From: Acidimicrobiales bacterium | GTDB lineage: Bacteria; Actinomycetota; Acidimicrobiia; Acidimicrobiales; JAHWLA01 | Assembly (NCBI GenBank): GCA_035536915.1 | Contig: DATLNE010000031.1 | Location: 62,001 to 126,000, forward strand | Direction of reading: 5' to 3' | DNA: 64,000 bases | Shown: positions 43,453-59,691 of the stretch, piece after piece | How positions within the stretch are numbered: the first letter of the stretch is position 1 | How the letters are laid out: each line of letters starts with the position of its first letter | Translations under genes and position numbers: made by a program | The notes under the pieces: generated by a model | What the model saw: the letters and a program-made list of their open reading frames with translations, nothing else | What the model was told of the DNA's origin: nothing | Database searches by the model: none

Positions 43453-43520
43453 GGCGCCCACGCTAGGCCTTCCACTTCACGGGTTGACGTTGCAGGTCCG
43501 CCATCGAGCGGTCCCGGCGG

Positions 43521-44545
43521 TGGACCCTTTGTTTCCTTCCACAGAGACAGAGGAGCCCACCGCCGTGACGCCGGAACAGATCATCCACCATCGACGCCTT
43601 GTCGTCCTGCACCAGGCGGGCCACAAGCCCGTGGCCGAGGTCTGCCGCGACCACGGCATCAGCCGCACGACCTACTACCGCTGGGCAGGCCGTGCCCGCC
43701 GCTACGGCCTCGCCGGGCTGATGCCCAAGGACCGCCGCCCGCCCGTGATGCCCAACGCCACGCCGCCCGACGTCGTGGAGGCGGTGCTGGCCGAGGCGGT
43801 GGCGCGGCCGACGCTCGGCGCGGGTCGCCTCGTCGAGCACCTGGCCGAGCGCGGCATCGTGCTGTCGGCCTCGGGCGTGCAGAAGCTGCTCGTGCGCCAC
43901 TGCCTGGGGCGCCGGGCCCAGCGGGTGCGGGCGCTGGCCCAGATCACCGCGGCGGACAGCGGCCTAATGACCGACGACGCCCGCTCGGGGCCGTTCGGCT
44001 TCTGCCCTTTCGCTGCCCGCCCGGGCGACCCCGTGGCCCTCGACACCTTCTACGTGGGGCGCCTGAAGGGCGTAGGCCAGGTGTGGCAGCTCACCGCCGT
44101 CGACACCGCCACGCGCTGGGCCGTCGTGCATCTCTTCGTGGGTGATAAGACCGCCGAGCGCGCCGTCGCCTTCGTCGACCACGTCGTGGAGCGCCTGGCG
44201 GCCGTCGGCGTCGAACTGCACCGCGTCCTCAGCGACAACGGGCCGGAGTTCTTCGGTCTCGCCTTCCGCCACGCCATGGCCGACCGTGGCCTCGACCACC
44301 ACCGCATCCCGCCCCGTTCGCTCAACCACAACGCAGTGTGCGAGCGATTCCAGGGCACGGTGCTCGAGGAGTTCTACCGGCCTGCGTTCCACCGGCAGCG
44401 CTTCGACACTGCGGCCCAGCTCGACGGCCAGCTCCAGGGCTGGGTCCACCGCTACAACACCCGTCGCCGCAACCGCGGCGACTTCATGCGCGGCCCACGC
44501 CGCTCGACGTGCAGAACTCGCATCGATGACACAACCGAGGGTCCA
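43521..44545 (+). mobile_element. IS481-like insertion sequence, about 1,025 bp
   Basis: The left end TGGACCCTTTGTT (43521) and the right end, whose complement reads TGGACCCTCGGTT (from 44545 inward), match at 11 of 13 positions as terminal inverted repeats. They frame a DDE transposase. No matching target duplication is seen in the immediate flanks, so the element may be old or its flanks rearranged. Confidence 0.72.
43565..44529 (+). pseudogene. IS481-like transposase with C-terminal frameshift
   Basis: From GTG 43565 it has a helix-turn-helix (VAEVCRDHGISRTTYYRWAG) and an integrase core with Asp in VALDTFYVGR, Asp in LSDNGPEFF and Glu in NAVCERFQG, all three catalytic residues. Near 44490 the frame breaks: the normal family ending TPLDVQNSHR is read in another frame, closing at TGA 44527-44529. 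Without correction the frame runs on to 44662 through unrelated sequence. One missing base explains this. The catalytic core is intact, so residual activity is not excluded. Confidence 0.78.
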
Positions 44546-44836
44546 TCTGTCGCCTCGGCTCGTGGAGCGGAAGGAACCCGGCGCCTTCCACACGACGTTG
44601 CATGTGGCCCGCTCGCCCCCGGCGGAAATTGGCTACAACGTGGCCGGGCTCTACCTCGATGACATGGGCCGAGAGTTTGGCGATGGTCGCCTGCTGCGGC
44701 CTCGTCGTCATCGGCCACCCGACGACGACGAGTGGCCCGTCCTACGGGGTGCGGCCTTACACGTTGGAGCGACCGCTGACCGCCCGGGTGCCCCTCGTGA
44801 GTGGACGGCTGGCCGCCGCCACGGTTTGATCGTCGT
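44546..44836. other. Non-coding or remnant stretch between insertion sequence and molybdoenzyme gene
   Basis: Several short frames cross this 291-base stretch but none has a convincing start, composition or family match. The longest (plus strand, ending near 44829) ends GPSYGVRPYTLERPLTA. The promoter of the molybdoenzyme operon should lie here. Confidence 0.4.
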
Positions 44837-47083
44837 ATGACAGGGCGGCAGACCGGGCCCGAGGACGAAGCGGCGGGGCCGACGGCGGTCGTGTCTGCCC
44901 TGCGCCACGCGCTGCCTGCCATGGGGGTGCGGCGCACGGCGGCCACCATGCTGCGCATCAACCAGCCTGACGGCTTCGACTGCCCGGGCTGCGCGTGGCC
45001 CGAGCCGCCGCCGGGCGAGCGCAGCCATGCGGAGTTCTGTGAGAACGGGGCCAAGGCGCTGGCCGAGGAAGCGACCACCAAGCGCATCGGGCCGGAGTTC
45101 TTCGCCGCACACACCGTCGCCGACCTGTCGGCCCATGACGACTTCTGGCTGGGCCAACAGGGCCGCCTGACCGAGCCCATGGTCCGGCGGGCAGGCAGCG
45201 AACGCTACGAGCCCATCGGCTGGGACGACGCCTTCGCCTTGGTGGCCGACCGACTCAACGAGTTGGCGTCGCCCGACGAAGCCGTCTTCTACACGTCGGG
45301 CCGCACCAACAACGAGGCGGCCTTCCTCTACCAACTCTTCGTGCGCCAGTTCGGCACCAACAACCTGCCCGACTGCTCCAACATGTGCCACGAGTCGAGC
45401 GGCGTCGCCTTGGGCGAGACCATCGGGATCGGCAAAGGCACCGTCACCCTGGCCGACTTCGCCGTCGCCGACCTCGTGCTCGTGGTGGGCCAGAACCCCG
45501 GCACCAACCACCCCCGCATGCTCGGCGCCCTCGAAGGCACCAAGCGCAACGGCGGCCGCATCGTGGCCGTCAACCCCCTCCCCGAGGCAGGCCTCACCCG
45601 TTTCCGGAACCCGCAAAAAGCCCGGGGCTGGATCGGCAAGGGCACGCAACTGGCCGACCGCTTCGTGCAGGTTCGGGTCAACGGCGACCTGGCGTTGTTC
45701 CTCGGGCTCAATCGGCTGCTGATCGAAGCCGATGCCGTCGACCGCGCCTTCGTCGACCAGCACACCACCGGCTTCGACGACTACGCCGCCGCCCTCAAAG
45801 AGCTCGACTGGGCCGAACTGGAGGCGGCGTCGGGCATCGGGCGGGCCGACGTCGAAGCCTTGCGCGACGAGGTGCTGGCCGCCGACAAGGTGATCGTGTG
45901 CTGGGCCATGGGCCTGACCCAGCACCGCAACTCGGTGGCCACCATCCGCGAGCTCGTGAACTTCTGCCTCCTGCGGGGAAACATCGGCCGTCCGGGCGCC
46001 GGGCTGTGCCCGGTGCGAGGCCACTCCAACGTGCAAGGCGACCGCACCATGGGCATCACCGAGCAACCTGGCCCCGCCTTCCTCGCGGCGCTGAGGACAG
46101 AGTTCGCCTTCGACCCGCCCACCCGCTCGGGCTTCGACACGGTCGACGCCATTAACGCCATGGCCGAGGGCCGCGCCAAGGTGTTCTTCGGCCTGGGCGG
46201 CAACTTCGTGGCCGCCGCGCCCGACACCGCGGCGACCACCGCGGCCCTGCGCCGGTGCCGCCTCACCGTGCACGTCTCCACCAAGTTGAACCGCTCGCAC
46301 CTCGTCACCGGCGAGGAGGCCCTGATCCTGCCGTGCCTCGGTCGCACCGAACGCGACCGCGGCCAGTTCGTCACCGTCGAGGACTCCATGGGCTTGGTGC
46401 ACGCATCGACGGGACGGCTGGCCCCCGCCTCGCCGCACCTGCTCTCCGAAGTGGCGATCGTGGCCCGACTGGCGGCCCGCACCCTCGGCGGCCGCTCCAC
46501 TGTCGACTGGACCCGCTTCGAAGCCGACTACGACGCCGTGCGCGACGCCGTCGCCCGGGTGGTGCCCGGCTTCGACGACTTCAACCATCGGGTGCGCGAA
46601 CCGGGCGGCTTCGCCCTCCCCAACGGCCCTCGCGACGCCCGCCGGTTCGACACGCCGACTGGGCGAGCCCGCTTCAGCGTCAACCCGCTCACCGTGGCCA
46701 GTGCGCCGCCAGGGCGCCTCATGCTCATGACCGTCCGGTCGCACGACCAGTTCAACACCACCATCTACGGCCTCGACGACCGCTACCGCGGCATCCGCAA
46801 CGACCGCCGCGTGGTGTTCGTCAGCCCCGACGACCTCCGCCCGCTCGGCTTGTCCGACGGCACCGTGGTGGACCTGGTGGGGGAGCACCACGACGGCGAG
46901 CGCCGGGCCGAGCGCTTCCGCATCGTGTCCTACCCGGTGACGCCGGGCACCTGCGCGGCCTACTTCCCCGAAGCCAACGTGCTGGTGCCCCTCGACAGCA
47001 CCGCCGAGGGCAGCAACACGCCGACGTCGAAGTCGGTCGTCGTTCGGCTTGAGCCCTCGGGCCACGTACCATTTGTTCGATGA
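44837..47083 (+). CDS. YdeP/FdhF-like molybdopterin oxidoreductase
   Basis: 748 residues from ATG 44837. The N-terminal GFDCPGCAWPEP (C49, C52) is the YdeP-type two-Cys motif rather than the four-Cys iron-sulfur site of most formate dehydrogenases. Molybdopterin-binding segments follow: VFYTSGRTNNEAAFLYQLF, SNMCHESSGVAL, and RSHDQFNTTIYG near the C-terminus. E. coli YdeP is linked to acid resistance; the reaction is not established. Its stop overlaps the start of a MEDS-STAS gene, an unusual pairing. Confidence 0.92.
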   Translation: MTGRQTGPEDEAAGPTAVVSALRHALPAMGVRRTAATMLRINQPDGFDCPGCAWPEPPPGERSHAEFCENGAKALAEEATTKRIGPEFFAAHTVADLSAHDDFWLGQQGRLTEPMVRRAGSERYEPIGWDDAFALVADRLNELASPDEAVFYTSGRTNNEAAFLYQLFVRQFGTNNLPDCSNMCHESSGVALGETIGIGKGTVTLADFAVADLVLVVGQNPGTNHPRMLGALEGTKRNGGRIVAVNPLPEAGLTRFRNPQKARGWIGKGTQLADRFVQVRVNGDLALFLGLNRLLIEADAVDRAFVDQHTTGFDDYAAALKELDWAELEAASGIGRADVEALRDEVLAADKVIVCWAMGLTQHRNSVATIRELVNFCLLRGNIGRPGAGLCPVRGHSNVQGDRTMGITEQPGPAFLAALRTEFAFDPPTRSGFDTVDAINAMAEGRAKVFFGLGGNFVAAAPDTAATTAALRRCRLTVHVSTKLNRSHLVTGEEALILPCLGRTERDRGQFVTVEDSMGLVHASTGRLAPASPHLLSEVAIVARLAARTLGGRSTVDWTRFEADYDAVRDAVARVVPGFDDFNHRVREPGGFALPNGPRDARRFDTPTGRARFSVNPLTVASAPPGRLMLMTVRSHDQFNTTIYGLDDRYRGIRNDRRVVFVSPDDLRPLGLSDGTVVDLVGEHHDGERRAERFRIVSYPVTPGTCAAYFPEANVLVPLDSTAEGSNTPTSKSVVVRLEPSGHVPFVR

Positions 47084-47907
47084 CCAGTGGGACGAGGACG
47101 ACCGGCGCGGTGGCCGATATCGGCGCGCTCGCTCCCGGCGAGCACGTGTGCTGGGCGGTCGACACCGACGACGACTACCACCGGCTGGCGACCTCGTGCA
47201 TGGCTGCAGGCACGAACGACGGCGACAAGGTCTTCTATTTCGGGCCCGAAGCGACGTTGGCGGCCTCGCCCGGGCCTGCCGCAGCCACAGCGGCCCTCGA
47301 CCCGGCCGTCACCGTCCTGGGTGGCGGCGCGCTGGTGCCCAGCGTCATGCTGGAGATGTTCCATCGTGAAGCCGCCTCGGCGGCCAAGGAGGGCTATCGG
47401 GCCCTTCGAGTTGTCGCCGACATGGACTGGGTGGCCAGGCGGGTCACCCCTGAAGAGCTGACTGCTTTCGAATTGAACCTCGACGCCGTCGTCCACCAAC
47501 TCGGTGCCGTCGTGATCTGTGCCTACCGCACCACTACGTACTCGGCCGAGGAGGTCGCGCAGGTGAACACCGTGCACCCGCAGGAGTTCGGCCGACCCCC
47601 CGACAACCTCGGCTTCCGCGTCTGGAGTGGCGGCCCGCAATGCTGGGACGTCGCCGGCGAGGTCGACTGCTTCAATGCCGACGCCTTCGGCTTCGCCTTG
47701 GCCTCGGCGGCTGCGTCCGGCCCCGTCCGGGTGCGGCTCACGGGCTTGGCCTTCATCGACGTGGCGGGCATGCGTGCCATCGCCACCGCCGCCGCGTCGG
47801 TCCCGACCGTTCGCATCCAACTCGAAGGCCCGTCGGAAACGTTCGTGCGGTGCTGGACGCTGCTCGGCTACGACGCCCTGGCGCCGGTCGTGGAAGTGGT
47901 CCGATGA
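47080..47907 (+). CDS. MEDS-STAS protein (candidate anti-sigma antagonist)
   Basis: 275 residues, ATG overlapping the molybdoenzyme stop. Residues 1-165 are a MEDS (DcmR-type sensory) domain: GEHVCWAVDTDDDYHRLA, ALRVVADMDWV and TVHPQEFG. Residues ~180-275 form a STAS domain (VRLTGLAFIDVAGMRAIATA), as in anti-sigma antagonists; the usual phosphorylatable Ser is replaced by Ala-Gly (DVAGM). It overlaps the next gene by 4 bases, whose ATPase domain is its likely partner. Confidence 0.86.
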   Translation: MTSGTRTTGAVADIGALAPGEHVCWAVDTDDDYHRLATSCMAAGTNDGDKVFYFGPEATLAASPGPAAATAALDPAVTVLGGGALVPSVMLEMFHREAASAAKEGYRALRVVADMDWVARRVTPEELTAFELNLDAVVHQLGAVVICAYRTTTYSAEEVAQVNTVHPQEFGRPPDNLGFRVWSGGPQCWDVAGEVDCFNADAFGFALASAAASGPVRVRLTGLAFIDVAGMRAIATAAASVPTVRIQLEGPSETFVRCWTLLGYDALAPVVEVVR

Positions 47908-48860
47908 CGACGACGTCCGCGCTGGGATCCACCGGCTACGAGAGCGCCTTCCGGCACGAGGCGCTGTTCTACGCAGGCCTCGACGAGTTCCGTGACCGCA
48001 TGGTCGAGTTCATCGGCGAAGGCGTCGATGCGGGCGAGCCGGTGCTGGTCGTGGTGAATGCGGCCAAGGTGGCCATGCTCACCGCCGCCCTCGGCCCCAA
48101 GGCCGCAGGCGTGCAGTTCGCCGACATGGCCGACGTCGGCCAGAACCCCGCTCGTATCATCCCCGTGTGGCGCGACTTCGTGGCCACCCACGGCGGCGAG
48201 GGCCGCCCCATGCGTGGCGTAGGCGAGCCCGCCTATGCCGAACGCACGGCCGACGAGATGGTCGAATGCCGCAGCCACGAGTCGCTGCTGAACGTGGCGT
48301 TCGCCGAGAGCCCCGGCTGGTGGCTCTTGTGCCCGTACGACACGACCACGCTCGACCCCGCGGTGGTGGCCGACGCCCGTCGCACCCATCCCTACGTGAT
48401 GTCGGGCGGCACATGCGCAGGCAGCGACTGCTTCGACACCGAGGGCACGCTGCACTCGCTGGCCCAGCCTTTGCCCGAGCCGCCGTTCACGCCGCAGGAA
48501 CTGTCGTTCCAACCGCGGCGCCTCGACGAGGTGCGCGGGTTCGTGTCGCGCCACGCCATGGCCTGCGGCCTCGCACCGCTGCGCATCGACGACCTGGTGC
48601 TGGCTGTGCACGAGTTGGCCACCAACAGCCTCCGCCACGGCGGCGGCGAGGGCACCGTGCGCTTGTGGCGCGACGGCAGCGCCGTGGTGTGCGAGGTGCG
48701 CGACACCGGCGTGATCAACGAGCCCATGATCGGCCGTTACCGTCCTGCCGCAGAGCAAGAGGGCGGCCGCGGCCTGTGGCTGGTGAACCAGCTCTGCGAC
48801 CTCGTGCAGGTGCGGTCTTCGGCGGCGGGCAGCATCGTCCGCCTCCGCATGAACGTCTAG
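47904..48860 (+). CDS. MEDS-ATPase protein (candidate RsbW-like anti-sigma kinase)
   Basis: 318 residues from ATG 47904. A MEDS domain (HEALFYAGLDEFRDRMVEF ... RTHPYVMSGG) is followed by a GHKL ATPase domain: N box LAVHELATNSLRHGGG, G1 EVRDTGV, G2 GGRGLWLVNQL. This is the layout of actinobacterial anti-sigma regulatory kinases. With the STAS protein upstream it makes a partner-switching module; the sigma factor target is not encoded here. Confidence 0.88.
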   Translation: MTTTSALGSTGYESAFRHEALFYAGLDEFRDRMVEFIGEGVDAGEPVLVVVNAAKVAMLTAALGPKAAGVQFADMADVGQNPARIIPVWRDFVATHGGEGRPMRGVGEPAYAERTADEMVECRSHESLLNVAFAESPGWWLLCPYDTTTLDPAVVADARRTHPYVMSGGTCAGSDCFDTEGTLHSLAQPLPEPPFTPQELSFQPRRLDEVRGFVSRHAMACGLAPLRIDDLVLAVHELATNSLRHGGGEGTVRLWRDGSAVVCEVRDTGVINEPMIGRYRPAAEQEGGRGLWLVNQLCDLVQVRSSAAGSIVRLRMNV

Positions 48861-50140: not shown

Positions 50141-51304
50141 CTACCGCGAAGTCAACGTGCCCGGTGGTCGGGTGGTGCGGGTTCGGCCCCGTGGGTCGGT
50201 GATCACCAGGGTGCCGTCGGGCTTGAGCTTTTCGGACCAACCCGGCTGGTGGCCGAGGTGGTGGTGCCTGCTGCACTTGAGCACCAGGTTGTCGAGGCTG
50301 GTGGTGCCGCCGTCGTGCCACGGGACCACGTGATGGGCCTCGCACCACTGCGACGGGCGGTCGCACCCCTCGAAGCGGCAGTGCCGATCACGCAGGACCA
50401 GCGCCGACCACAGCGGGGCCGGGATCGTGCGGGTGGAGGTGCCGTAGTCGAGGATCGTGCTCCGGCCGTCGGTCACCACTCGGTGGATCGCTGCGTCGCA
50501 CGCCAGCGCCTGCACCGCCGAGGCGTCGAGCAGCCCGCCGCCGACGAAGCTGCCGCCCTTGCCCCGCACCAGGGCGTCGTAGTCGACCACCACGTTGAGG
50601 TGCGGCCGGTGCCTGCCACCGCGCCGACCGCTCTGGTGGTCGAGGAAGAACCTGCAGACATCGACCAGCGCGTCCGCCCGCCGCTGCGACGGCAGCACGT
50701 CGGGGTCGTCGACCATTGCCAAGCGCAACGCCGTGGCCACCGTCTCGCCGCCCAGCGGGTCCAACGAACCCGTGAGGTCCCACTGGCCGTCCAAGGTCTG
50801 CGAGAGGTGCACGCCTTGGTCGAACGTGGGCTCGATGTCGAGCGTCGCCTTCCACTGCTGCATGGCCACCGCCGTGTCGGCCACCGACAGGTCGACCAAC
50901 GCGGGCACGACCGCCGCCTCGTGCTCTGCGAACTCCGGCGTGGCGTTGCGCACGATCGCTTGCACTTGGCCGCCCGACAGAGCCCCTGACAACCAGCACG
51001 CCGCCGTCATCGGCAGGGTGCGGAGCTTCTTCGCAGTGGACGCCGCTGACTTGGCGGTGCTCGACGTCATGCCCGCGTGGTGCCGCAGCCAGGCCGTCAT
51101 CGACGTCGCTCCGTCGAGCTCCCACATCGCCTCGGCGTCGAACTCGCCGACCGCCGCCGCCAGCTTCGCGTTGAGCAGGTCCGCCACCTTCAAGACCTCT
51201 GCCAGGGCGTCGCCGTCGAGCGGAACTTCCAGCTTTTCGACGACGTCCCGCAGTTCTCCAACCACGCTCTGATCGTACACACGTTCGATCAGCAAATCAA
51301 GCAA
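50141..51304 (-). CDS. DUF222 / HNH endonuclease
   Basis: 387 residues. The N-terminal DUF222 region (LNAKLAAAVGEFDAEAMWEL, SMTAWLRHHAGM) is followed by a C-terminal HNH nuclease (CRFEGCDRPSQWCEAHHVVP, then DNLVLKCSRHHHLGH). This family is multi-copy in many actinobacteria and its role is unclear; it can seed homologous repeats in genomes. It ends in a Pro/Arg/Thr-rich tail. Confidence 0.92.
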   Translation of the reverse strand: MLDLLIERVYDQSVVGELRDVVEKLEVPLDGDALAEVLKVADLLNAKLAAAVGEFDAEAMWELDGATSMTAWLRHHAGMTSSTAKSAASTAKKLRTLPMTAACWLSGALSGGQVQAIVRNATPEFAEHEAAVVPALVDLSVADTAVAMQQWKATLDIEPTFDQGVHLSQTLDGQWDLTGSLDPLGGETVATALRLAMVDDPDVLPSQRRADALVDVCRFFLDHQSGRRGGRHRPHLNVVVDYDALVRGKGGSFVGGGLLDASAVQALACDAAIHRVVTDGRSTILDYGTSTRTIPAPLWSALVLRDRHCRFEGCDRPSQWCEAHHVVPWHDGGTTSLDNLVLKCSRHHHLGHQPGWSEKLKPDGTLVITDPRGRTRTTRPPGTLTSR

Positions 51305-54260: not shown

Positions 54261-55067
54261 ATGCAGGTCGACGACGGGCGTCACGCTTGCTGCTACTACG
54301 ACGACGACGCTCAGCGCGACGTCGTCGTGGGGCAGTTCCTGGCCGACGGCGTGGCTCGGCATCAGCGGCTGCTGTACCTCTCCGACGGCACGGCGCCCGA
54401 GGTCGTGGCCCGCCTGCTCGACGCCCGTGGCATCGACAGCGCCGCCTTGCTGCGCTCCGGTGGCTTGGCCGTGGAGCCGGCTGCGACCGCGTACCTGGCG
54501 GGGGGCACCTTCGACCCCGACGACGTCAAGGACCTGGTGCGCGTACGGGTGCACGACGCCTTGGCTGCGGGCTACGCCGGCTTGCGGGTCACCGCCGAGA
54601 TGGGTTGGGCGACCCGCGGCGCGCCCGGCACCGAGCGCTTGGACGAGTACGAGCGCGACGTCAACGCGCTGTTCGACGAAGGCTCCCTGGTCGGCTTGTG
54701 CCAGTACGACCGTCGTGTCTTCGACAGCGCCGCGGTGGCGCTGGCGTGTCATCACGAGGTGTGCGGCTCGGCGGGCTTCGTCGCCAGTCGGCGCAACGGC
54801 ACCATGCGCGTGGCGGGCGAGGTCGACTTCAACGACAGCGACGTCCTGGCCGCCTGCATCGCCGCCGGCGACCTCGACGTCGACCTGGCCGACGTCGCCT
54901 TCGTCGACATCGCAGCCGTGCGCGCCCTCGTATCGGCGGCGCGCCGCCTGCCCGCCGGTGCCGCCCTGGTGCTGCGCAACGTGCCGCCCGTGGTCGAGCG
55001 GCTGTTGGCCCTCACCGGCTGGGGCGCCACCCCGCAGCTTCGGGCAGAGGTTCGACTCGCCCGCTGA
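54261..55067 (+). CDS. MEDS-STAS-like protein
   Basis: 268 residues from ATG 54261 (GTG 54252 possible). The MEDS domain reads HACCYYDDDAQRDVVVGQFL, LRVTAEMGWA and GLCQYDRRVF. The C-terminal ~85 residues (GTMRVAGEVDFNDSDVLAAC, VDLADVAFVDIAAVRAL) are STAS-like without the usual Ser. It is a paralogue of the protein at 47080-47907, here without an ATPase partner. Its 3' end overlaps the convergent fumarylacetoacetase gene by 56 bases. Confidence 0.82.
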   Translation: MQVDDGRHACCYYDDDAQRDVVVGQFLADGVARHQRLLYLSDGTAPEVVARLLDARGIDSAALLRSGGLAVEPAATAYLAGGTFDPDDVKDLVRVRVHDALAAGYAGLRVTAEMGWATRGAPGTERLDEYERDVNALFDEGSLVGLCQYDRRVFDSAAVALACHHEVCGSAGFVASRRNGTMRVAGEVDFNDSDVLAACIAAGDLDVDLADVAFVDIAAVRALVSAARRLPAGAALVLRNVPPVVERLLALTGWGATPQLRAEVRLAR

Positions 55068-56112
55068 CCTCGCCGATCGAGGAGCGGATGGTGGCCACGT
55101 CGCCGTCCTGGAGGAACGTGCGGGTGGAGCCGTCGTCGAGCGTCAGCGGCCGCTCGCCCCGCCACGTCAGTTCGATGAGGCTGCCGAACGAGTCGGGCTC
55201 CCAGCCCGAGATGGTGCCGCTGGCGTAGAGGTCGCCGGTGCGCATGGCGGCGCCGTTGACGGTGGCATTGGCGACCAGCTGGGCTGGGCCCCACGTCAGC
55301 TCGCGGGCGTTGGTGCGAGAGACCACGGTGCCGTTGAGCTCCAGGGCGAGGTCGAGGTCGGGCACCCGCGGGCCGTCGACGCGCAGGTAGGGGTCGACGT
55401 CCTGGGGCGGCCCCTCTACCAAGGGGACTGCTGCGGCGGGGGTGACCCACGCCGAGACCGACGTGGCGAACGACTTGCCCAGGTGCGGCCCGAGCGGCTG
55501 GTACTCGAACGACTGGATGTCGCGGGCCGACCAGTCGTTCACGACGACGAAGCCGAAGATGTGGTCCCAGGCCTGCTCTGTGGGAACCGGGTGCCCGCGT
55601 TCGGAGCCCACACCCACGATCACCCCCAGTTCGACCTCGACGTCGAGCATGGCGGTGGGCCGCAGCGTCGGGCGTTCGTCGCCCGGTCGTACCGTTAGTC
55701 CCTGTGGGCGGTAGACAGGCTCGCCGCTGACGACCAGGGTGGCAGCCCGGCCGTGGTAGCCGACCGGCAGGTGGCGCCAGTTGGGGAGCAGCGGCTCGCT
55801 GTCGGGCCGGAACATGCGACCCAGGTTGGTGGCGTGCGACTCCGAGGCGTAGAAGTCGACGTAGTCGGCGGGCCGCCACGGGAGCACGAGTGTCACTTCG
55901 GCCAGCGGCGTCAGCAGTTCCTCGCGTGGCTCCATGTCGGCCAGGCGGTTGTAGGCCTCCCGCCACGCCGTGGGGCCTGCGGCCATGAAGGCGTTGAGGG
56001 CGGGCTCGGCGAACACGGGGTCGTCGAGCGCTCGGGCCAGGTCGACCACGTGGTCGCCGACGCGCCCGACGCAACCTGTTGTGCGGGTGACCCCGTAGGA
56101 GCTAACCCGCAT
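55012..56112 (-). CDS. fahA: Fumarylacetoacetase
   Basis: 366 residues from an ATG at 56112 that overlaps the aminotransferase-DinB stop by 11 bases. Catalytic-core segments are YVDFYASESHATNLGRMF, LPVGYHGRAATL, DVEVELGVIVG and FGFVVVNDWSARDIQ, with acidic metal ligands. It splits fumarylacetoacetate into fumarate and acetoacetate, the last step of tyrosine breakdown. It is the last gene of the hpd operon. Confidence 0.94.
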   Translation of the reverse strand: MRVSSYGVTRTTGCVGRVGDHVVDLARALDDPVFAEPALNAFMAAGPTAWREAYNRLADMEPREELLTPLAEVTLVLPWRPADYVDFYASESHATNLGRMFRPDSEPLLPNWRHLPVGYHGRAATLVVSGEPVYRPQGLTVRPGDERPTLRPTAMLDVEVELGVIVGVGSERGHPVPTEQAWDHIFGFVVVNDWSARDIQSFEYQPLGPHLGKSFATSVSAWVTPAAAVPLVEGPPQDVDPYLRVDGPRVPDLDLALELNGTVVSRTNARELTWGPAQLVANATVNGAAMRTGDLYASGTISGWEPDSFGSLIELTWRGERPLTLDDGSTRTFLQDGDVATIRSSIGEVSGRVEPLPEAAGWRPSR

Positions 56113-57583
56113 CGAGCTTCTCCAACTGGTCGGCGTGCTCTTCGTAGTGGCCGACGAGGAACTCGTCGAGGATGCGGGGCACGTCCATGGCGCCCAGCTT
56201 CGAGTGCACGCCGTGGCGCCGCCAGTCCTCGGGCGACAACGACGACACCACGTGGGCCAAGCGGTCGAGCGCGCGCATGGCCGCCGTCAGGTGCGCCCGC
56301 CGCTCGTCGTGTCGGTGCCCGTCGATCCATCGCACCCGCGCTGGGTCGGACTTCACCCGGCCGAACGGCGCCCCGTCGGACGCCAGCACCTTGTCGAGCT
56401 CGACCAACCAGTAGCGGCCGAACTCGCCGATGTGCGCCCACGCCTGCCCCTCGTCCCACCGTTCGGTGCCGCCTGGGTCGGGATCGGTCAGCCCCCGCCG
56501 GGGAGTGTCGGCCAAGCGCGGCAAGCGCGCCCGCACGCCGTCGATGCGGTCGAGCACGGCCGCCACCCGGGAGGCGTGCGTGGGGTCGTCGGCCGGCGGC
56601 AAGCCGGCCAGGAAGCGGTCGTTCTCCTCGGGCGTGCCGATGGTGACGCGCATGCCTTCCGGGAACGGGCGGGTCACCACGCCGGGCACGTCCACAGTGG
56701 GCATCCACACGAAGTTGGCCTGCGAGTCGGGCGTGGCGTAGCCCAGCTCGAACAGCGCCCGCCGCACCCGAGTGCGTTCGGCCACCACGGCGGCCACCCG
56801 CTCGTGCAGCTCGTCGTCGGCCGCGAGCGAGGCCAGGGCGGCGGCCTGCGCCACGGCGTTGACGGCGAAGGGGATCAGCACCTTGTCGACCACGGCCACC
56901 ACTTCGGGGTCGGCAACCATGTAGCCGATGCGCAGTCCGGCCAGTCCGTAGGCCTTGGAGAAGGTGCGCAGGACGACGACGTTGGGATGTGCCTTCACCC
57001 GGGCGAGGCCGTCGACGACGTCGTCGCGGGTGACGAACTCGCGGTAGGCCTCGTCGAGCACGACCAGGCACGTGGGCGGCACGTCGCCCAGGAAGGCGGT
57101 GAGCCCGCTGTCGTCGAGCGCCGTGCCGGTCGGGTTGTTGGGGTTGGCCAGCAGCACCAGCTTGGTCCGCTCGGTGATGCGCAGCGCACCGACGTCGATG
57201 GTGTCTCGCACCAGCGGCGCGGTCACCGCCTCGGCCCCGGCGATCGTCGTCATGATCGGGTACGCCTCGAACGACCGCCACCCGAAGGCGACCTCGTCAC
57301 CGGGGCCGGCGTAGGCCAGGCACAGCTGTTGCAGCAGACCCACGCTGCCGCACCCCACCGCAATGCACTCCGCCGGCACGTGCAGCCGCGCCGCCACTGC
57401 TTCGCGCACGGCGGTGGCGTGGTGGTCGGGGTACCGGTTGATGCGGGCGCCGGCGTCGGCCAGGGCGGCTCGCACCGACGGCAGCGGGTCGAAGGGCTGC
57501 TCGTTCGACGAGAGCTTGGCCGAGCCCTCGACGCTCCGGCCGGGCCGGTACGAGGGGAGGTCGGCGATGGCGGGGCGAGGCAT
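56102..57583 (-). CDS. HisC-like aminotransferase fused to a C-terminal DinB-like domain
   Basis: 493 residues. Residues 1-~330 are a class I/II aminotransferase of the HisC/aromatic type: KLSSNEQPFDPLPS, LANPNNPTG, VLDEAYREF and the PLP-binding Lys 210 in RTFSKAYGLAGLRIGY. HisC proteins end near residue 350. Here ~160 more residues follow, with WDEGQAWAHIGEFGRYW (H384), HRHDERRAHL (H423, H425, H431) and VGHYEEHADQL (H479, H483), a DinB-like helix bundle with possible three-His metal site. In this operon the first part probably converts tyrosine or phenylalanine to the keto acid. The role of the second part is open. Confidence 0.85.
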   Translation of the reverse strand: MPRPAIADLPSYRPGRSVEGSAKLSSNEQPFDPLPSVRAALADAGARINRYPDHHATAVREAVAARLHVPAECIAVGCGSVGLLQQLCLAYAGPGDEVAFGWRSFEAYPIMTTIAGAEAVTAPLVRDTIDVGALRITERTKLVLLANPNNPTGTALDDSGLTAFLGDVPPTCLVVLDEAYREFVTRDDVVDGLARVKAHPNVVVLRTFSKAYGLAGLRIGYMVADPEVVAVVDKVLIPFAVNAVAQAAALASLAADDELHERVAAVVAERTRVRRALFELGYATPDSQANFVWMPTVDVPGVVTRPFPEGMRVTIGTPEENDRFLAGLPPADDPTHASRVAAVLDRIDGVRARLPRLADTPRRGLTDPDPGGTERWDEGQAWAHIGEFGRYWLVELDKVLASDGAPFGRVKSDPARVRWIDGHRHDERRAHLTAAMRALDRLAHVVSSLSPEDWRRHGVHSKLGAMDVPRILDEFLVGHYEEHADQLEKLDAG

Positions 57584-57587
57584 GGCC

Positions 57588-58700
57588 TCAGAGATTGCCG
57601 CGGCGCTCCTGCTCGCGCTCGATGGCTTCGAACAAGGCCTTGAAGTTGCCCTCGCCGAAGCCGCCGGCGCCTTCGCGCTGGATGACCTCGAAGAACAACG
57701 TGGGCCGGTCGCCGAACGTCTCGGTGAAGACCTGGAGCAGGTAGCCGCCCGACTCGCGGTCGACGAGGATGCCGAGGCGCGACAGGTCGTGCCACGGGAG
57801 GTCGATGCCGTCGAGGCGGCGGCGGGCGTCCTCGTAGTAGCTGGGCGGGGGAGTGAGGAAGCGCACGCCCCGGTCGCGCAACGACGCCACCGAGCCCACG
57901 ATGTCGTCGGTGGCCATGGCGATGTGCTGCACGCCGGGGCCGCCGTAGGCGTCGAGGTACTCCTGAATCTGGCTCTTGCGCCGGCCCTCGGCAGGCTCGT
58001 TGATGGGCATGACGATGCGGCCGCCGTTGTGTACCACGGTCGAGCGCAAGGCCGAGTACTCCGTCGAGATCTGGTCGCGATCGAAGTGCGTCATCTGCCG
58101 GAACCCGAAGGTGTCCTCGTAGAAGCGCACCCACCCCTCCAGCACGCCCTCTTCCACGTTGCCGACGATGTGGTCGATGGTGCGCAGCCGCGCCGGGTCG
58201 CCGATGCGGGGCTCGAACAGCCGCTCGGTGGTGAAGCCGGGGCCGAAGCCGTCGTAGGCGCTTCGGTCGACGAAGGCGTGCACGGTGTCGCCGTAAGTGG
58301 CGACCTCGGCGGTGACCACGATGCCGCCGTCGCCCCGGTGCTCGTGCGGCGGCGTGACCGGCTCGGCGCCCCGCTCGACGGCGGCCCGGAAGGCGTGCTC
58401 CACGTCGGGCACCTCGAAGCACAGGCGCTTCACGCCGTCGCCGTGGGTGCGCACGTGGGCCATGACCTCGGAGTCGGGCGTGAGGCCGGCGGTGACGACG
58501 AAACGGATGTCGCCCTGCTGGAGGAGCCAGCTGGTGCGGTCGCGCACGCCGGTCTCGGGGCCTGCGTAGCCGACGACGTCGAAGCCGAAGCCGGTGGCCA
58601 ACCAGTGGGCGGAGGCTCGGGCGTTGCCCACCCACATCTCGACGGCGTCCCATCCCGTCAGCAACTCTGCGGGGGCGACAGTCGCAGCGGTGAGCGTCAT
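57588..58700 (-). CDS. hpd: 4-Hydroxyphenylpyruvate dioxygenase
   Basis: 370 residues. Two vicinal-oxygen-chelate halves are seen. Iron ligands lie in IDHIVGNVEEG, in GVQHIAMATDDIV and as a Glu near FFEVIQREGAGGFGEGNFKALF, the family ending. It turns 4-hydroxyphenylpyruvate into homogentisate with O2. It is the first gene of the minus-strand operon, 4 bases ahead of the aminotransferase-DinB gene. It is divergent from phenylalanine hydroxylase (118 bases). Confidence 0.96.
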   Translation of the reverse strand: MTLTAATVAPAELLTGWDAVEMWVGNARASAHWLATGFGFDVVGYAGPETGVRDRTSWLLQQGDIRFVVTAGLTPDSEVMAHVRTHGDGVKRLCFEVPDVEHAFRAAVERGAEPVTPPHEHRGDGGIVVTAEVATYGDTVHAFVDRSAYDGFGPGFTTERLFEPRIGDPARLRTIDHIVGNVEEGVLEGWVRFYEDTFGFRQMTHFDRDQISTEYSALRSTVVHNGGRIVMPINEPAEGRRKSQIQEYLDAYGGPGVQHIAMATDDIVGSVASLRDRGVRFLTPPPSYYEDARRRLDGIDLPWHDLSRLGILVDRESGGYLLQVFTETFGDRPTLFFEVIQREGAGGFGEGNFKALFEAIEREQERRGNL

Positions 58701-58818
58701 GTCTCCGGTATGCCCCTCGATCCCCGAACTGTCAACATCAGCCGCCGTTCGTTAGGCAGATTGCCCAGTTCTCCCGAGAGAGGTAGACGAACTGCGTCCG
58801 TCGGGGTACGACAGGGCT

Positions 58819-59691
58819 ATGGCCTACTCGCCGGTGACGGCGCTCGACGGAGCAGTGCGGGTCGAGCTCAGCGAGGACCACCCCGGCTTTGCCGATCCGG
58901 CCTATCGGCGCCGGCGCGACGACCTGGCGGCGTTGGCCCTCGACTACCAGCCCGGCGACCCCATCCCCACGCCGACCTACACCGAGACGGAGCACGAGGT
59001 GTGGCGCATCGTCAGCCGGGAGCTGGCGGTCAAGCACCGGGAGTACGCCAACCGGGAGTTCCTGGAGGCGGTCGAGGCGCTGGCCTTGCCCCGAGACCGC
59101 ATTCCCCAGTTGCACGAGGTGACCGAGCGGCTGGCGCCGCTCACCGGGTGGAAGTACCTGCCCGTGGCCGGGTTGGCCCCGCTGTGCGACTTCTACGGCT
59201 CGTTCGCCGACGGCACCTTCCACTCCACGCAGTACATCCGCCACCACTCGGTCCCGCTCTACACGCCCGAGCCCGACATCGTGCACGAGGTGCTGGGCCA
59301 CGCCAACCAGTTGGCCCACCCTGAGTTCGCGGCGTTGTGTCGGGTGGTGGGGCAGGTGGTGCGGCGGCTGGAGACGCCCGAGGCGCTGCTGTTCCTGTCG
59401 AAGGTGTTCTGGTTCACCTTCGAGTTCGGCGTGGCGTGGGAGGGGAGCGAGCTGCGGACGTACGGGGCGGGGGTCCTGTCGTCGTACGGCGAGCTCGACA
59501 ACTTCCGCAAGGCCGAGATCCGGCCCCTCGACTGGGGCGCCATGGGGACACTCGACTACGACATCACCCACTACCAGCCGGTGCTGTTCGCGGCGCCGTC
59601 GATCCCGGCGTTGGTGGAGGAGCTGCGGGGGTTCCTCGAAGGCTTCGACGACGAGACGGCGTTGCGGTGGACGACCTCGACCGCCGCCTGA
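58819..59691 (+). CDS. phhA: Phenylalanine 4-monooxygenase
   Basis: 290 residues. The iron site is HEVLGH (His 156 and 161) in VPLYTPEPDIVHEVLGHANQ, with the Glu in FWFTFEFGVAWEG. It is the single-domain bacterial form without a regulatory ACT domain. It makes tyrosine from phenylalanine with a pterin cofactor and O2. The Lrp regulator gene overlaps its 3' end by 25 bases. No pterin carbinolamine dehydratase is in the window. Confidence 0.95.
   Translation: MAYSPVTALDGAVRVELSEDHPGFADPAYRRRRDDLAALALDYQPGDPIPTPTYTETEHEVWRIVSRELAVKHREYANREFLEAVEALALPRDRIPQLHEVTERLAPLTGWKYLPVAGLAPLCDFYGSFADGTFHSTQYIRHHSVPLYTPEPDIVHEVLGHANQLAHPEFAALCRVVGQVVRRLETPEALLFLSKVFWFTFEFGVAWEGSELRTYGAGVLSSYGELDNFRKAEIRPLDWGAMGTLDYDITHYQPVLFAAPSIPALVEELRGFLEGFDDETALRWTTSTAA

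Follow-up and report, generated by a model that had tools for sequence, protein, structure and literature searches.

The functional unit at this locus of the window (the whole 64,000-nucleotide stretch of DNA analyzed here) is, with about even confidence on our part, a two-gene pair encoding a MEDS-STAS protein and a MEDS-ATPase that resembles RsbV and RsbW and would be gated by ligands without phosphorylation, the adjoining ydeP-like gene being a mere neighbor. The initial annotation had described a YdeP-type oxidoreductase, a MEDS-STAS protein and a MEDS-ATPase overlapping by 4 bases each, and we confirmed the ORFs, the families and the junctions. The ydeP-like gene (44837-47083), the MEDS-STAS gene (47080-47907) and the MEDS-ATPase gene (47904-48860) lie head to tail on the same (+) strand, and both junctions, ydeP/MEDS-STAS and MEDS-STAS/MEDS-ATPase, are 4-base ATGA overlaps, the first of which presupposes the ATG at 47080 as the start of MEDS-STAS. 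No Shine-Dalgarno sequence was seen before this ATG, and an alternative start, a GTG at 47110 with GAGG upstream, would leave a 27-base gap after ydeP. A promoter and terminator scan returned nothing above chance. As the upstream neighbor, the ydeP enzyme is probably co-transcribed with the pair.

We found ydeP beside MEDS genes in no other genome sampled. For 80 named close relatives of ydeP (~58-68% identity, including Streptomyces, Planotetraspora, Amycolatopsis, Mycolicibacterium, and Aquihabitans), we inspected flanks of up to 8 kb per side, some of them shorter at contig ends, and detected a MEDS gene in 0 of 80, whether we searched by blastp using the MEDS domains of the window's three proteins or with an iterated profile. 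The gene neighbors of ydeP vary from genome to genome. Within a sample of the order (148 genomes), a TIGR01701 member over the cut-off was present in 22 and a MEDS match in 33, and the two stood side by side in this genome only. Within a sample of the class (395 genomes), a close ydeP relative occurred in 19, a close MEDS-ATPase in 22 and both in four, and this genome was the only one with both on one contig. Genome-level co-occurrence of ydeP and MEDS-ATPase was slightly above chance (p = 0.016, with this genome included and relatedness uncorrected). Since MEDS genes are absent near the 80 relatives and a contig is shared only here, the coupling of ydeP to the MEDS pair is specific to this lineage; the region has been rearranged, and an IS481-like transposase adjoins it. 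The initial annotation had treated the molybdoenzyme as coupled to the pair and had named routine separation in relatives as a sign of chance adjacency; such separation is what the 80 relatives and the 148 and 395 genomes display, the trio not being kept together as a conserved ydeP-MEDS-MEDS module. Our best explanation sees no conserved functional tie between the enzyme and the MEDS pair, and the molybdoenzyme link is not worth pursuing as a conserved system.

The transposase ORF (43463-44662, +; NF033577, 212 bits, just under the cut-off of 224) ends ~175 bases upstream of ydeP. Since the genome has just one copy of it and its flanks show no clear repeats, a mobile unit made by this transposase was not established. 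In the one same-genus genome compared (G001, 76% complete and without a comparable ydeP), the genes that flank the locus are scattered in another order among different contigs, and for this reason no clean empty site was found there. MEDS matches number just three in the genome of the window (3.2 Mb, 54 contigs), none more than 8 kb from the others. The third, absent from the initial annotation's account, is a second and unpaired MEDS-STAS gene at about 54261-55067 (+). The two MEDS-STAS proteins of the genome are only ~25% identical, although all three MEDS genes lie within 8 kb.

The ydeP product itself belongs to the FdhF/YdeP family (TIGR01701, 922 bits versus a cut-off of 582), of which it is a full-length member, with ~58-68% identity to orthologues in Planotetraspora, Streptomyces, and other genera. 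It differs from the other family members examined in being the sole copy that adjoins MEDS genes, and it falls far under the cut-off of the E. coli YdeP acid-resistance equivalog (NF007406, 719 bits versus 1473). It also fails the formate dehydrogenase alpha subunit equivalog (TIGR01591, 253 bits versus 666). In an alignment with 1aa6, the active-site residues Sec140 (here Cys), His141, and Arg333 of FdhF have conserved counterparts. At its N-terminus (44837-45060), there are three Cys only (49, 52, and 69) where formate dehydrogenase H uses four for a 4Fe-4S cluster. The ydeP gene has been called uncharacterized (PMC13094775).

The pair, on the other hand, recurs without ydeP. The product of 47080-47907 combines a MEDS domain (PF14417, 9.5e-25) with a STAS domain (PF01740, 24.5 bits versus a cut-off of 22.6), and that of 47904-48860 combines MEDS (2.8e-33) with HATPase_c_2 (3.5e-20) and passes the 'anti-sigma factor RsbA family' model NF041045 (360 bits versus a cut-off of 210). 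Adjoining MEDS-STAS and MEDS-ATPase genes were found in nine pairs (G000, G037, G018, G139, G121, G031, G140, G186, and G581), only one of which has ydeP beside it. The two ORFs overlap by 1-13 bases in all eight pairs measured, by exactly 4 in five of them, and occur in either order, while the upstream genes, read by eye, vary (SDR-type in G037, Ogt-like in G018, and FAD-monooxygenase-like in G186). The STAS and ATPase genes are a genuine recurrent pair of the RsbV/RsbW type. Two results count against our best explanation here. The identity matrices of the partners from eight pairs are not correlated (Mantel r -0.12, p = 0.71), so co-inheritance of the partners was rejected, an unexpected outcome if they form an obligate complex; the window STAS is nearest to that of G186 (40%) and the window ATPase to that of G037 (51%). 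In addition, MEDS-ATPase is often found with no adjoining MEDS-STAS within flanks of ~1.5 kb.

As in RsbV/RsbW and SpoIIAA/SpoIIAB, STAS and HATPase_c_2 proteins are encoded side by side, and the STAS fold, the ATPase fold, and the N-box Glu/Asn are shared. The window pair differs in having an N-terminal MEDS domain on both halves, in having no sigma gene alongside, and in the residue at the phospho-acceptor site. The phosphorylated residue in those systems is the serine after Asp, Ser56 of RsbV and Ser58 of SpoIIAA. When the RsbV motif MDSTG is aligned with FIDVAG of the window MEDS-STAS, Val228 (codon 47761-47763, +) falls at this serine. Across 13 MEDS-STAS proteins, the column reads V, I, V, L, G, H, V, C, V, H, V, C, and H, with Ser/Thr in 0 of 13 and likewise never at the following residue; the second MEDS-STAS of the genome (54261-55067) has Ile. 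Among STAS domains without MEDS retrieved with the same profile, Ser occupies the site in 14 of 20 (Fisher p = 5e-5 versus MEDS-STAS, an optimistic value because the sequences are related, with controls that are the STAS domains most like the profile). The N-box Glu237 and Asn241 of the MEDS-ATPase are invariant in 14 of 14 aligned rows. Since the N-box is kept and the STAS serine is missing, the ATPase half does not appear degenerate, while the STAS half is beyond control by phosphorylation at the usual residue. Partner switching is driven by phosphorylation of the conserved STAS serine in the systems reviewed in PMC8256260, and the same loss of the acceptor beside an intact N-box makes such textbook switching of this STAS unlikely. 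The earlier description of a partner-switching pair therefore stands as regards a recurrent RsbV/RsbW-type pair, while its phosphorylation sense is doubtful. Phosphorylation at another MEDS-STAS residue is possible and counts against our best explanation.

In AlphaFold2 models of the two proteins (mean pLDDT of 83 for MEDS-STAS and 90 for MEDS-ATPase), the ATPase half matches the anti-sigma structures SpoIIAB, RsbW, and UsfX. The matches to the model of MEDS-STAS are KaiC, Rad51/DMC1, and RecA, with RsbV among them too. By inspection, GxxxxGK[ST] is absent from both proteins of the window pair, and the MEDS domain thus resembles a KaiC/RecA-type fold that has no P-loop. Four of its residues are invariant (H22, E131, C147, and H166 in MEDS-STAS; H18, E126, C143, and H162 in MEDS-ATPase), and this His, Glu, Cys, and His possibly mark a candidate ligand site. 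A passage in PMC11507031, citing Anantharaman and Aravind 2005, describes MEDS as sensing simple hydrocarbon derivatives and gives a hypothesized role for it in SigB control in actinobacteria. The window proteins share the MEDS domain with DcmR-type sensors and MEDS histidine kinases, for which hydrocarbon-derivative sensing is reported (PMC11507031; a kinase example is in PMC11784639), and differ from them in that the output is a STAS domain or an anti-sigma-type ATPase rather than a DNA-binding or histidine-kinase domain. Ligand binding by the window MEDS domains would follow from this literature and the fold, and we counted this against our best explanation.

In the mechanism that we propose, the MEDS-ATPase, as a protein of RsbW/SpoIIAB type, would hold a sigma factor or another regulator, and MEDS-STAS would bind and sequester it in the fashion of RsbV. 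Since MEDS-STAS cannot be turned off via phosphorylation at the usual serine, the on/off state would most likely be decided by small molecules acting on the two KaiC-like MEDS domains and altering partner binding. We infer the binding, the target, the ligand, and the direction of the switch; the domain content, the gene overlap, the recurrence of the pair without ydeP, the loss of the phospho-acceptor, and the retention of the N-box were observed directly. A broader and tentative suggestion, which we think is rather less likely to hold, is that these pairs constitute phosphorylation-independent partner switching, in which ligands on two degenerate KaiC-like domains replace the kinase/phosphatase cycle and which was repeatedly assembled from exchangeable partners. 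If the pair does work without phosphorylation, it would amount to a less complex anti-sigma partner switch under direct ligand gating, and it would explain why Ser/Thr never occupies the STAS site in the proteins examined. The pair also makes the idea of MEDS action in SigB-type regulation testable on defined proteins. A MEDS domain fused to an anti-sigma-type ATPase is already known, and the MEDS-ATPase is a full-length member of that NF041045 RsbA family; what is new is the non-phosphorylatable STAS and the overlapping pairing with a MEDS-STAS that is itself no member (31 bits). A limited literature search, which does not prove absence, found no dedicated paper on MEDS-STAS/MEDS-ATPase pairs or on MEDS with STAS or RsbA.

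The genome has four SigB/F-type sigma genes, two of which exceed the TIGR02980 cut-off while the other two narrowly miss it. None lies beside the window pair, the nearest being on other contigs, and this counts against our best explanation. An RsbW-like gene is directly upstream of two of the four, and the other two (C45 and C14), which have none, are candidate first targets of the MEDS-ATPase; their presence speaks for our best explanation. It is unlikely, in our estimate, that the pair instead controls a non-sigma process, for example an enzyme or a cyclase, as in some non-canonical STAS systems. PMC8256260 reviews STAS systems whose outputs are different or unknown, and no sigma gene adjoins the pairs that we read by eye, but the structures closest to the ATPase half are anti-sigma factors, the NCBI family is named as such (NF041045), and the genome offers SigB/F-type sigma factors that lack a neighboring anti-sigma gene.

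The kept N-box Glu and Asn also fit a canonical switch in which the MEDS-ATPase phosphorylates a separate stand-alone STAS and MEDS-STAS serves that kinase only as a regulator or decoy; the same genome does encode further STAS domains that carry Ser at this position (L008). However, the gene-level partner in the nine pairs is MEDS-STAS and not a stand-alone STAS, and we regard this alternative as quite improbable. We give the least credence to a single operon in which both MEDS domains sense a substrate or product of the YdeP-type enzyme and set a sigma factor for ydeP and other genes. The three same-strand genes with ATGA junctions, the link of MEDS to simple hydrocarbon derivatives (PMC11507031), and the weak genome-level co-occurrence (p 0.016) agree with it, but neither the 80 close ydeP relatives nor any other genome in the order and class samples shows the linkage, a transposase sits immediately upstream, and comparison with the same-genus genome shows the region to be rearranged. 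The initial annotation's proposal of a common ligand running from enzyme to sensors loses its basis along with the coupling, though it could still hold in this one genome. We retain the proposed ligand-gated two-gene pair as our best explanation.

Several other features of the genome were observed. Upstream of two SigB/F-type sigma genes lie RsbW-like genes (L261:1011-1427 and the end of L262:2246-3502, -) that have DELLFGLM and DELCFALI at the place of the expected N-box Asn, and ATP binding by these anti-sigma-like proteins may therefore depart from the usual mode. An HNH/DUF222-like ORF at 50141-51304 (-) is closely matched by a second copy that the genome carries on a different contig (L211:574-1803, -) and is possibly a mobile or repeated gene. 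Finally, 55012-59691 carries apparent phenylalanine/tyrosine breakdown genes (fumarylacetoacetase-like, aminotransferase-like, HPPD-like, and phenylalanine 4-monooxygenase).
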